From a virus: a stretch of DNA of 20,738 nt. Every line of letters starts with the position of its first letter. Position 1 is the stretch's first letter. Where the stretch lies: the IMG/VR virus record IMGVR_UViG_3300045999_008662, positions 1 to 20,738 of that record, one strand, 5' to 3'. The notes under the pieces were generated by a model. It was not told the DNA's origin and ran no database searches. It was given only the letters and a program-made list of their open reading frames with translations. Of this stretch, positions 547-16,113 are shown one piece after another. The translations under genes were made by a program, and so were the position numbers.

Positions 547-697
547 GCAGAAGCGAGTAGCATCGTTTACAGCGTTTTGGGTTGCTGTTGGAGTTGCTTT
601 GTGTGGATTTCATTATGATATAGTATTGATTTTCATAGGGTATTCAGCAACAGCGATAGGTTTAAATGTTTGGAATAAGAAAATAGATAAACAATAA
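500..697 (+). CDS. Two-segment membrane protein, holin-like, 65 aa
   Basis: A hydrophilic N-terminus (MKKIIYDTLAPKGTFEQKR) is followed by two hydrophobic segments at about residues 22-37 and 39-57 and a basic C-terminus (NKKIDKQ). This size and topology match class II phage holins, which form inner-membrane lesions that release or activate the lysin. There is no diagnostic motif, so the call rests on topology only. The start lies within the preceding membrane-protein gene. The likely lysin is 4.3 kb downstream at 5034, so the two are not in one obvious operon. Confidence 0.6.
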   Translation: MKKIIYDTLAPKGTFEQKRVASFTAFWVAVGVALCGFHYDIVLIFIGYSATAIGLNVWNKKIDKQ

Positions 698-701
698 TTA
701 C

Positions 702-709
702 TATATTTG
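702..709 (+). promoter_or_regulatory. Bacteroidetes-type promoter -7 element
   Basis: TATATTTG matches the TAnnTTTG consensus of the Bacteroidetes primary sigma factor. A terminator follows at 743-772, so initiation here would give only a very short RNA unless readthrough occurs. I see no clear -33 TTG at ideal spacing. Confidence 0.4.
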
Positions 710-742
710 TAAACTTTCATATTAGTTTTTTTAGGTTAATTG

Positions 743-772
743 AGCCTATCATTCATTTGGTAGGCTTTTTTT
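743..772 (+). terminator. Rho-independent terminator
   Basis: The stem AGCCTATC (743-750) pairs with GGTAGGCT (759-766) with one G-T wobble and an 8-nt loop, and is followed by a T run to 772. It closes the membrane-protein genes and separates them from the RNA gene whose -7 element starts two bases later. Confidence 0.85.
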
Positions 773-773
773 A

Positions 774-781
774 TATATTTG
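774..781 (+). promoter_or_regulatory. Promoter -7 element of the tmRNA-like gene
   Basis: TATATTTG (774-781) matches TAnnTTTG. It sits directly after the terminator at 743-772, and initiation about 6-8 bases downstream (near 787-789) would begin just before the acceptor piece of the tmRNA-like RNA. Confidence 0.65.
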
Positions 782-836
782 CATAGTTAAACTGTTAGTT
801 TATATTTGGACGAGGGTTCGACTCCCTCCACCTCCA

Positions 837-899
837 CAAGTGTTGTCAAGCACTAAGTGAAAGTTAGGCAAAGCACAAACCTTTCACTTATTTATATTA
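837..899 (+). other. Intervening segment of the permuted tmRNA, two hairpins
   Basis: This segment joins the acceptor piece to the coding piece and would be removed when each is processed. It folds into AGTGTT/AGCACT (839-844/849-854) and a perfect 10-bp stem TAAGTGAAAG/CTTTCACTTA (854-863/881-890) with a 17-nt loop. In known permuted tmRNAs the spacer is excised by tRNA-processing enzymes. Here RNase P would be expected to cut before G900. Confidence 0.7.
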
Positions 900-3726: not shown

Positions 3727-4169
3727 AACCAAACTACAAACATTTAAGCGTGCTCCTACTGGGTGCGCTTTACATCGTTGGAATGTTGTATTTCCTTTAT
3801 GGTTGCAGCGCAAACTACCACTTCACTAAATTCCTAAACAAAGGCGGTAAAATCGACACAACCGAACGAGTTGTAACGGTCGAAAAGACTATTAAAGTAA
3901 ACGGCAAAGATTCAATTATATTCGTTCAGATGCCTTTAAACTGCCCCGAAGTACAAATACCACCGACACGCACCGAAATACGCTACAAATACAGATTAAA
4001 GCGTGATTCAATTGAAACGGTGCGTTATGTAACTAAATGGAAAACGAAAGAAATTATTAAGGTTGCAAAAACTGAAAACAAATCGAACTGGTTAACGTGG
4101 TTGTTAGTTGGTTTTGGAATTGCGCAAGGTTTAAGATTAGTATCGATTTTAATACAAAAAAGATTATGA
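3723..4169 (+). CDS. Putative unimolecular spanin (lipoprotein plus C-terminal membrane segment), 148 aa
   Basis: The N-terminus has a basic start, a hydrophobic stretch (residues 9-26) and LYGC at 25-28, which fits a lipobox with C28 as the lipidated residue. A soluble middle follows (about 29-120), rich in Lys, Thr and beta-prone segments. Residues about 123-144 form a second hydrophobic segment and the protein ends basic (IQKRL). An outer-membrane lipoprotein joined to an inner-membrane anchor is the topology of u-spanins, which fuse the two membranes at the last step of lysis of Gram-negative hosts. The probable lysin is 0.9 kb downstream, supporting a lysis cluster. The function is inferred from topology, not from a family match. 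Confidence 0.55.
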   Translation: MKPNYKHLSVLLLGALYIVGMLYFLYGCSANYHFTKFLNKGGKIDTTERVVTVEKTIKVNGKDSIIFVQMPLNCPEVQIPPTRTEIRYKYRLKRDSIETVRYVTKWKTKEIIKVAKTENKSNWLTWLLVGFGIAQGLRLVSILIQKRL

Positions 4170-9055: not shown

Positions 9056-9649
9056 ATGGAAGAAATTTGGAAGCCTTTAAGAGGTTTTGAGGATTATGCA
9101 AAAGTTTCAAATAAAGGGAATGTTTTAGTATTTGGAAGGTGGGTTAATAATAATTTTGGACAAAGATTTATGCCTGAAAAGCTATTAACTCAACATAAAA
9201 CTGGAGGTAAATATGTCTACAGATTTGTTACTCTTCATATTGATAATAAAAAACACAGCTTATTTACTGCAAGAATAGTTTACGAGACTTTTAACGATAT
9301 AAGTTTAAATAGAAAGTTTTGTGTTGTTCATAAAGATGGCAATATAGATAATTGCAATTTAGATAATATTAAAATAATTACACGTAGAGATAAACAAAAT
9401 TTAGTTCAAAATAAAACTGGATATAATGGAGTTTATAAAGCAAGTAATGGCGGATATAGCGCACAAATTGTTTTTGAAGGAAAAAGACTTACTGTTCACT
9501 CATCAATTTCAAAACAAGAATGTATGAAGATATACCAATTAGCAAAGTCTTTAATTAATAATTATGAAAAAGATAAAATTAAAATATTAGAAAACAGCAA
9601 GTTAAATAATAAAATAATTCAGAAACAAAATAAAATTCCTTTATTATGA
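9056..9649 (+). CDS. Free-standing HNH endonuclease (NUMOD4-HNH plus AP2-like domain), 197 aa
   Basis: Residues 3-26 (EIWKPLRGFEDYAKVSNKGN) match the NUMOD4 DNA-binding motif found at the start of phage HNH homing enzymes. An HNH_3-like core follows: the family's VHRLV segment is represented by FTARIVYETF (70-79), and VHKDGNIDNCNLDNIKIITR (91-110) holds H92 and the asparagines of the beta-beta-alpha metal fold. Residues 121-150 (TGYNGVYKASNGGYSAQIVF and on) resemble the AP2-like DNA-binding domain of such enzymes. It does not interrupt any gene here, so it is free-standing between the repeat field and the helicase. Coding is more AT-rich than in many neighbours, compatible with later arrival. 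Confidence 0.85.
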   Translation: MEEIWKPLRGFEDYAKVSNKGNVLVFGRWVNNNFGQRFMPEKLLTQHKTGGKYVYRFVTLHIDNKKHSLFTARIVYETFNDISLNRKFCVVHKDGNIDNCNLDNIKIITRRDKQNLVQNKTGYNGVYKASNGGYSAQIVFEGKRLTVHSSISKQECMKIYQLAKSLINNYEKDKIKILENSKLNNKIIQKQNKIPLL

Positions 9650-14905: not shown

Positions 14906-14919
14906 TTTACTTTAAGTAA
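14902..14919 (+). CDS. Five-codon mini-ORF before the terminase gene
   Basis: ATGATTTACTTTAAGTAATG contains ATG ATT TAC TTT AAG TAA. The start overlaps the upstream stop (ATGA) and the stop overlaps the terminase ATG (TAATG). It would let ribosomes terminate and restart at the terminase gene. Whether the peptide MIYFK itself matters is unknown. Confidence 0.3.
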   Translation: MIYFK

Positions 14920-16113
14920 TGTTTAAACGAACAACCGCAATAAATAGAATAAAAGCGATGAAGTCTCGTATCCGAGTGATACAAGGTGGGACTTCTGCCC
15001 TTTATCCCCTACTTAGTAATAGGTAGGGGAGATAATGCAGGGAAAACATACGCGATAATTCCTATATTGATAGACCGAGCAATCAAAGAACAACGTATAA
15101 AAATTACAGTTGTTGCAGAAACTTTACCTGCAGTAAAAGAGGGAGCGTTAGATATTTTCAAAACTATAATGGTTGAGACAAACCGTTGGATTGAAAACAA
15201 TTGGAACGCTTCAGCTTTGATTTATACTTTTACCAACGGCTCACGAATGCAGTTTAAATCATTCGATAGTGACGGTAAAGCAAAAGCAAGCGGAAAGCGT
15301 GATATTCTATTCCTTAACGAAGCAAACCATATTCCTTTTATTATTGCAGATGCTTTAATGATTAGAAGTTCAGAAACTTATATTGACTTCAATCCAGATA
15401 ACGAATTTTGGGTGCATTCTGAAATATTACCACAGCATAATGCAGAATTTCTATTGCTTACTTATTTAGATAACGAAGGTATTTCAAAGGAAACTTTGGA
15501 AGACTTAATGATTAAAAAAGAGAAAGCTAAAACTTCTAATTATTGGGCTAATTGGTGGAGGGTTTACGGCGAAGGTCAAATTGGAAACTTACAAGGGGTT
15601 GTATTTAGCAACTGGCAAACTATTGATACTATTCCAAACGAAGCACGTTTATTAGGAATCGGATTAGACTTTGGTTATACCAACGACCCGACAAGTGCGA
15701 TTGCAGTTTACAAATGGAATGATAAACGAATTGTTAAAGAATTGTTTTATCGTACTGGAATGCTTAACGGTGACATCGCAAACGCACTACCCAAAGATGC
15801 GGTTATTTATGCGGATTCAGCAGAACCGAAAAGCATTGAGGAAATACGGCGTAGGGGTTTACAAATTTACCCCGTAACAAAAGGCAAGGATTCAATTAAC
15901 TACGGAATTGATGTTATGCAACAGCAAGAATATTTAGTTACAAGCGACAGCACAAATCTAATTAAAGAACTTAGAGGTTATTGTTGGGACGTTGATAGAA
16001 CAGGAAAAACAACCAATAAACCGCAAGGGGGCAACGATCACGGGATTGACGCACTACGTTACCACGAAATGGAATCCATAAGCACGAATAAAGGCGTTTA
16101 CAACATTTATTAG
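14919..16113 (+). CDS. terL: Terminase large subunit, P-loop interrupted by a 40-nt hairpin insertion
   Basis: From ATG at 14919 the frame reads MFKRTTAINRI ... RIRVIQGGTSA, the usual N-terminus of a Bacteroidetes-phage large terminase up to the middle of the Walker A motif, and then runs into a stop at 15024-15026. The rest of the motif, AGKTYAIIPILIDRA, resumes at 15037 in the +1 frame and stays open to 16113. Skipping 40 nt restores GGTSAGKT and a 384-aa protein. The downstream part is intact: Walker B DILFLNEAN (coded near 15300), DFNPDN, and nuclease motifs GLDFGYTNDPT, YADSAEPKSIEEI and NDHGIDALRYH. A separate start at GTG 14986 would give a protein with RGDNAGKT instead of GGTSAGKT, a weaker P-loop. 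Terminase pumps DNA into the procapsid and cuts it. Bypassing, an assembly error or a pseudogene must be told apart. Confidence 0.85.
14997..15036 (+). other. 40-nt hairpin insertion in the terL Walker A codons
   Basis: TCCCCTACTTA (15005-15015) pairs with TAGGTAGGGGA (15020-15030, one wobble) over 11 bp, closed by a GUAA tetraloop of the GNRA class. The Ala codon GCC (14997) precedes it and the Ala codon GCA (15037) follows it, so codon-matched take-off and landing sites are available. An in-frame TAG lies in the 3' strand of the stem. The layout recalls the T4 gene 60 bypass gap. Confidence 0.75.

Follow-up and report, generated by a model that had tools for sequence, protein, structure and literature searches.

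The P-loop of the large terminase gene in the phage DNA analysed here is interrupted by a short insert which, judged from its own sequence and from those of its relatives, is probably a programmed translational bypass element with an anatomy like that of T4 gene 60. The window, i.e. the whole stretch of 20,738 nucleotides (nt) under analysis, is a 20.7-kb genome fragment from a tailed phage, taken from a virus record, and contains a block of packaging genes. The first open reading frame of the split gene (ORF1) begins with ATG at 14919 and encodes MFKRTTAINRIKAMKSRIRVIQGGTSA up to the Ala codon GCC (14997-14999), followed by LYPLLSNR and TAG (15024-15026). Homology to terminases restarts at the Ala codon GCA (15037-15039), after which ORF2 continues with GKTYAI to its stop codon at 16111-16113; the C-terminal part of the protein matches Pfam Terminase_3C (E 8e-13). 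The insert comprises 37 nt between GCC and GCA, or 40 nt if one Ala codon is counted, shifts the frame and carries a stop. The RNA from 14996 to 15040 has a minimum free energy (MFE) of -20.9 kcal/mol (z -4.97), and 0 of 200 shuffles were equally stable. The original prediction, which placed GGTSA up to 14999, AGKTYAI from 15037 and a frame-shifting, stop-containing insert with an 11-bp GUAA stem between them, was accurate in all these points; it lacked a second stem-loop at 14960-14995. The features of the locus are compiled in Table 1. In 14996-15039, the take-off and landing regions may base-pair (UGC/GCA) around a symmetric 6x6 internal loop, which closes the gap hairpin.

Table 1 Features of the interrupted large terminase gene in the window
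Feature	Position	Strand	Description
ORF1	14919..15026	+	N-terminus of the large terminase, 27 codons through GGTSA, then 8 codons and TAG; read from the sequence
5' stem-loop in coding sequence	14960..14995	+	14960-14967 pairs with 14988-14995 and 14968-14972 with 14978-14982; stops 1 nt before the take-off codon
Putative take-off codon GCC (Ala of GGTSA)	14997..14999	+	final codon before the break in P-loop homology; distance to the hairpin kept in all families
Putative bypassed gap, 37 nt	15000..15036	+	lacking in near relatives; gaps of 29-42 nt here in other relatives
Gap hairpin, 11 bp, GUAA loop	15005..15030	+	z -4.97; related Ala-type elements have compensatory changes
In-frame stop TAG	15024..15026	+	would terminate ORF1
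Purine-rich GGGGAG, Shine-Dalgarno-like	15026..15031	+	5 nt 5' of the landing codon; seen in the sequence, candidate signal
Putative landing codon GCA (Ala)	15037..15039	+	itself undecoded in the model; GKT... homology restarts immediately 3'
ORF2	15040..16113	+	remaining 357 codons of the large terminase, GKTYAI... onwards, with the RNase H-like nuclease domain at the C-terminus

The exact hairpin of the window was found in one other contig (L001), at the same site and in a different metagenome; around the gene, the two sequences share 91% identity. Of the 80 nearest terminases from viral contigs, 75 were classifiable, and an insert occupied the same place in 11 of these. An alignment with relatives lacking the insert had been proposed in the original prediction, and such relatives are numerous: many near ones have no insert and are 98-99% identical to ORF2 at the amino acid level. 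Since the same site is filled in many terminases and an identical insert occurs in L001, the insert of the window is not a product of chance. Around a second locus, L173, 18 of 72 terminases were filled. We then scanned for P-loop codons split by any 29-59 nt (two scans) or 24-54 nt (a third scan), leaving the sequence of the insert unspecified. With chance matches removed, every genuine interruption of the P-loop was a C-rich/G-rich (CCC...GGG) hairpin. The scans yielded 33 distinct P-loop pattern strings, two of them false, which fall into about 12 families. An interrupted P-loop is shared by 82 distinct 210-nt neighbourhoods from more than 30 metagenomes, a count that is free of the repeated contigs included in the other locus counts. 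All insert-bearing sequences are metagenomic contigs; cultured phages gave no match to 13 concatenated elements, and the 13 matches of a pattern scan of genome contigs were all due to chance. From the likeness of the terminases to those of Flavobacterium phages, the hosts are probably Bacteroidota.

All families are built on a common plan, in which a stem-loop within the coding sequence lies just before a take-off codon for Ala or Gly, a spacer of 4-6 nt leads to the C-rich/G-rich hairpin, and a landing codon comes last. The distance from the take-off codon to the stem was 4-6 nt in every family, and 5 or 6 nt in all but L039. In the Ala types, the last residue of GGTSA is encoded by the take-off codon, and decoding restarts after a second Ala codon; in the Gly types, the break lies one codon later and the G of GKT is duplicated, usually as GGA/GGA. 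Both types restore GGTSAGKT (or GGTSASKT). The landing codon normally encodes the same amino acid as the take-off codon, the pair being GGA/GGA in G29, G32, G33, G33b and G35, GGT/GGT in G38 and GCT/GCT in L039/L230. Unmatched pairs are GCC/GCA in the window and GCT/GCA, GGG/GGA and GGT/GGA elsewhere, and in most Ala families the two codons differ in the third base. The earlier suggestion that the flanking codons GCC and GCA possibly serve as take-off and landing sites is supported. In the Ala-type element of L226 (minus-strand match, 4006-4075) the pair is GCC/GTT, and a tRNA-Ala would need second-position wobble at GTT. The landing codon of the Gly types is fixed: GGA occupies this position in 56 of 57 filled genes (those with an insert) compared to 10 of 54 clade-matched empty ones, and the codon thereafter is AAA in 56 of 57 compared to 25 of 54. 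After take-off, the A site holds a sense codon, and a stop is the second codon after take-off in 7 of the 13 representatives and the sixth to twelfth in the rest (the ninth in the window).

The upstream stem-loop forms between the codons of QGGTSA and a segment lying about 40-55 nt 5' of the take-off codon, as in CGGAAG..CUUCCG (L056), CCGAA..UUCGG (L039), GCAGGUG..CAUCUGC (L173), GCUGAAG..CUUCAGC (L216) and GCGCUUG..CAAGUGC (L235). This structure is specific to insert-bearing genes, with a mean z of -4.1 in filled and -0.4 in empty genes when compared to protein-preserving recodings. In the window it is weak when taken alone (z -1.07, synonymous-codon null), as it is in L317 (z -1.39), so that the case for it in the window is made mostly by its family. 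In a gap-free alignment of the Gly types, the 5' stem-loop was paired at 94%; four of its pairs had both bases changed, and 0 of 500 shuffles were as good. In the Ala types, the gap hairpin, whose loop is GCAA in some relatives, was paired at 100% with two compensatory positions (C-G/U-A; A-U/C-G/G-C), and the inner part of the 5' stem-loop at 94%, the outer part being shifted in register in L039/L230. The 5' stem-loops could not be brought into a single alignment, since the register of pairing differs between Ala and Gly types. No 3' stem-loop was found after the landing codon, the values for the 60 nt past landing being -7.4 in filled and -7.8 in empty genes.

The observed gaps measure 29, 32, 33, 34, 35, 36, 37, 38, 39, 41 or 42 nt, and across the families all three frames of ORF2 relative to ORF1 are represented. 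This bears on the idea that ribosomes read through the stop and shift frame within the hairpin, so that the P-loop of the resulting terminase would be longer by about 13-15 residues. Such a product would suit the 39- and 42-nt families, where both ORFs share one frame, and the Ala types, where the landing frame 5' of GCA resembles a second P-loop strand (VVGGDNAGKT, LVIGRGDNAGKT) and the bases before GCA vary in a codon-like manner (GAY AAY). However, neither readthrough nor one frameshift accounts for gaps in all three frames, which rules out either event in its simple form, several families have stops in both frames, and the Gly families encode no second P-loop. The extra residues would, moreover, split a Walker A motif that is intact in all empty relatives. 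We consider this explanation quite unlikely.

In insert-bearing loci, the upstream part opens at an ATG about 27-30 codons 5' of the break, and ORF2 runs uninterrupted over 357-371 codons in almost every complete locus. Codon differences in ORF1 were of the synonymous and nonsynonymous type at 18:0 in the family of the window and 981:40 in G33, the excess being weaker in G29 and G32. As change is mostly synonymous, ORF1 of filled genes is translated, and both ORF1 and ORF2 are under purifying selection. ORF1 is basic, as is the same region of empty relatives. The 60 nt upstream together with the insert share 85-100% identity, and in most families 95-100%, compared to 69-90% for the downstream coding sequence, and empty genes have no such upstream peak. 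The peak fits selection on a signal made of RNA plus peptide, exchange of a cassette by recombination, or both.

These patterns also bear on two explanations in which the halves are never joined. If the insert inactivated the terminase, be it in decaying phages, through assembly errors or in helper-dependent elements, the broken frame would be accounted for, which is the sole point in favour of this idea; the open ORF2 in nearly all loci, the purifying selection on both ORFs and the spread of identical and diverged copies over more than 30 metagenomes make it extremely improbable. Decay and assembly error in particular are ruled out by recurrence with conserved frames. The view that the downstream gene is intact and not decaying, already taken in the original prediction, agrees with its 357 codons, their purifying selection and the recurrence of the arrangement. 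A second explanation is that a separate terminase protein is made from an internal start, which in the window would be GTG 14986 and give the P-loop RGDNAGKT. The frame is indeed open from this GTG, and the landing frame holds an ATG in L070 and a GTG in L180 and L407. Yet no ATG, GTG or TTG lies between the last stop and the P-loop in L173, L186, L317, L235 and L230, which excludes two separate proteins in these families, and in L112 and L039 a TAA just upstream closes the landing frame. The separate protein would also lack the strand ending in GGTSA, despite the conservation of ORF1 at the protein level. An internal start is therefore very improbable for the set.

A pair of close relatives, L436 (filled) and L268 (empty), is identical over 66 nt upstream and differs by a clean 36-nt insert. 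The precise absence of the insert between GCT and GGN in this pair would also be expected if the gap were removed, either from the RNA as a tiny element resembling an intron or from the DNA ahead of expression, so that the ribosome never meets it. Removal would give an identical joined product, and the pair of flanking hairpins could act as signals for processing. We regard it as unlikely, since no known bacterial intron class is so small, no intron-like Rfam family matches and the bulge-helix-bulge arrangement is absent, and since removal needs neither matched amino acids at the ends, nor a fixed distance from codon to stem, nor a stop as the second codon (7 of 13). The gap of 29-42 nt holds no catalytic core of group I or group II introns, and Rfam searches of the window matched a tRNA only. 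A known RNA family was considered for the insert as well, and none matched.

The recurrence of P-loop inserts with one design and differing sequences suggests that ribosomes most likely jump them, and the T4 gene 60-like anatomy (5' stem-loop, take-off codon with hairpin, stops in the gap and matched landing) points to bypassing as the most likely way of joining the two ORFs. The sequences show the break and its recurrence, protein-level constraint on both ORFs, the two RNA structures, the constant spacing and the fixed landing codon; that joining takes place on the ribosome, how efficient it is and which part each stem-loop plays are inferred. In the window, the ribosome would decode ORF1 up to GCC 14997-14999. 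With this codon in the P site, the hairpin starting 5 nt downstream would hinder the next decoding step, upon which the peptidyl-tRNA may release the message and the ribosome cross the 37-nt gap. The tRNA would re-pair at GCA 15037 and decoding restart at GGG, giving a single terminase of 384 residues whose P-loop has the normal sequence GGTSAGKT. The stem-loop further upstream would be unwound under the ribosome and may then refold behind it and help forward movement, as has been proposed for T4 gene 60. Some observations do not fit bypassing well. It does not predict the codon-like variation before GCA, and the third-base mismatches of the Ala types, landing on GTT in L226 and an A site filled by a sense codon are further points of this kind.

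A phage tRNA for the take-off codon was also looked for, and no Ala or Gly tRNA was found. The window carries a tRNA gene at 2292-2377 (+; Rfam tRNA, 51 bits) with extra nucleotides in the anticodon arm (CCCTAATTTAATATGGTGTATACCAGGG); ARAGORN assigns it no anticodon, and it possibly represents another small insert in a phage RNA gene. A tmRNA called by ARAGORN at 590-837 (+) has an implausible tag and no Rfam support and is probably a false call.

On a tree of 269 terminases, the presence of the insert changes at least 38 times, and well-supported branches require 17 of these changes. Identical downstream proteins form three sets that are each spread over more than one group. As read from this tree, the insert is often gained, lost or exchanged. 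Copies in other genes were sought among the collected loci, where only scattered, non-recurrent matches occurred. A search of all viral contigs with the G33 hairpin returned 39 contigs, every one with the hairpin in the terminase P-loop, and a scan for CTTTAKYCCCCT...AGGGG returned terminases only, apart from unrelated chance matches. The original prediction had proposed an element that copies itself into conserved sites; as copies were found only at the terminase P-loop, horizontal exchange is supported and self-copying to new sites is not. It had also tied the insert to an HNH endonuclease gene 5.9 kb upstream (9056-9649). No link to this gene as the source of the insert is visible, because L001 carries the insert but different DNA in that region.

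In several other loci an endonuclease gene is much closer. A NUMOD4/HNH_3 gene lies directly upstream of the interrupted terminase in L134, L070, L074, L230 and L039, L317 has a weak GIY-YIG match, below cut-off, at this position, and an HNH gene is likewise found directly upstream of the terminase in the empty relative L029. In L186 and L112, the gene directly upstream is DNA methylase-like and not an endonuclease. The arrangement recalls mobA, which adjoins T4 gene 60 (PMC2988022, PMC5009743), as well as the inteins of terminase P-loops (PMC5050341), and suggests that the insert may shield or mark a homing site. The element may spread together with about 60 nt of upstream sequence through recombination between terminase genes, perhaps aided by homing endonucleases in some lineages. 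We lean, by a little, towards the broader view of a diversified class of bypass elements, each element being a cassette that unites a 5' stem-loop and a gap hairpin with the take-off and landing codons. Phages would exchange these cassettes at the Walker A codons of terminase, as small inserts that are mobile or shield against an endonuclease. If this is true, bypassing would be a common route by which Bacteroidota phages express an essential gene. As gene callers overlook the first part of such genes, similar cases may hide as 'truncated' terminases.

Efficient bypassing in phages has been established for T4 gene 60 only, in addition to the mitochondrial byps, and other bacterial cases are suspected or doubtful (PMC5009743). 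With T4 gene 60, the terminase inserts share a short gap that splits two ORFs of one phage gene, GGA as take-off and landing codon (in the Gly families), an upstream coding stem-loop and a hairpin after take-off, a stop near the take-off codon, a purine-rich sequence before landing and a history with HNH endonucleases (PMC5009743, PMC11194080). The resemblance to T4 gene 60 and byps noted in the original prediction is borne out by a recurrent family with conserved RNA structure, but the take-off and landing codons of the window, GCC and GCA, are not identical, although those of most Gly families are. In contrast to T4 gene 60, whose gap is 50 nt, the gaps in terminases are 29-42 nt, the hairpin begins 4-6 nt past take-off, the A-site codon is a sense codon with the stop not immediately after take-off, and there is no 3' stem-loop after landing. 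They further comprise at least 12 sequence families at one gene site, use Ala besides Gly and probably belong to phages of Bacteroidota. Ribosome sliding on T4 gene 60 is highly processive up to roughly 56 nt (PMC11194080), and all terminase gaps are shorter. The byp elements in mitochondria of Magnusiomyces capitatus are likewise many short inserts that are hopped over; they occupy 81 positions in 12 genes under relaxed mitochondrial decoding and are seemingly independent of context (PMC5009743), whereas the terminase inserts occupy one site in one gene with conserved structures flanking the take-off codon.

Bypassing in a terminase gene has also been suspected for Streptomyces phage Hau3 and the prophage Strep C.1 (cited in PMC5009743). 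That case was attributed to a UUA codon and has a much shorter gap, and the review describes neither a hairpin family nor a P-loop insertion. In Bacteroidota, a hop of 29 nt, the length found in G29, was reported for plaA of Prevotella loescheii (cited in PMC5009743); plaA is a host adhesin gene, and the hop was never followed up. Mycobacteriophage inteins are mobile sequences that also sit in the Walker A motif of terminase (PMC5050341), but inteins are translated and then spliced as protein, while the inserts described here are 29-42 nt long and contain stops. Bypassing as such is known, and in a terminase it was suspected before (Hau3, PMC5009743). A dozen sequence families that share one codon pair and carry two co-varying structures did not turn up in the open-access papers searched. 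A dozen independent-looking elements at one codon pair provide comparative data that were previously missing for bypassing, and the families reveal which of the spacings, codons and structures are conserved and which may vary. The elements also connect bypassing with homing-type mobility at the P-loop of terminase, which is known as a hot spot for inserts.
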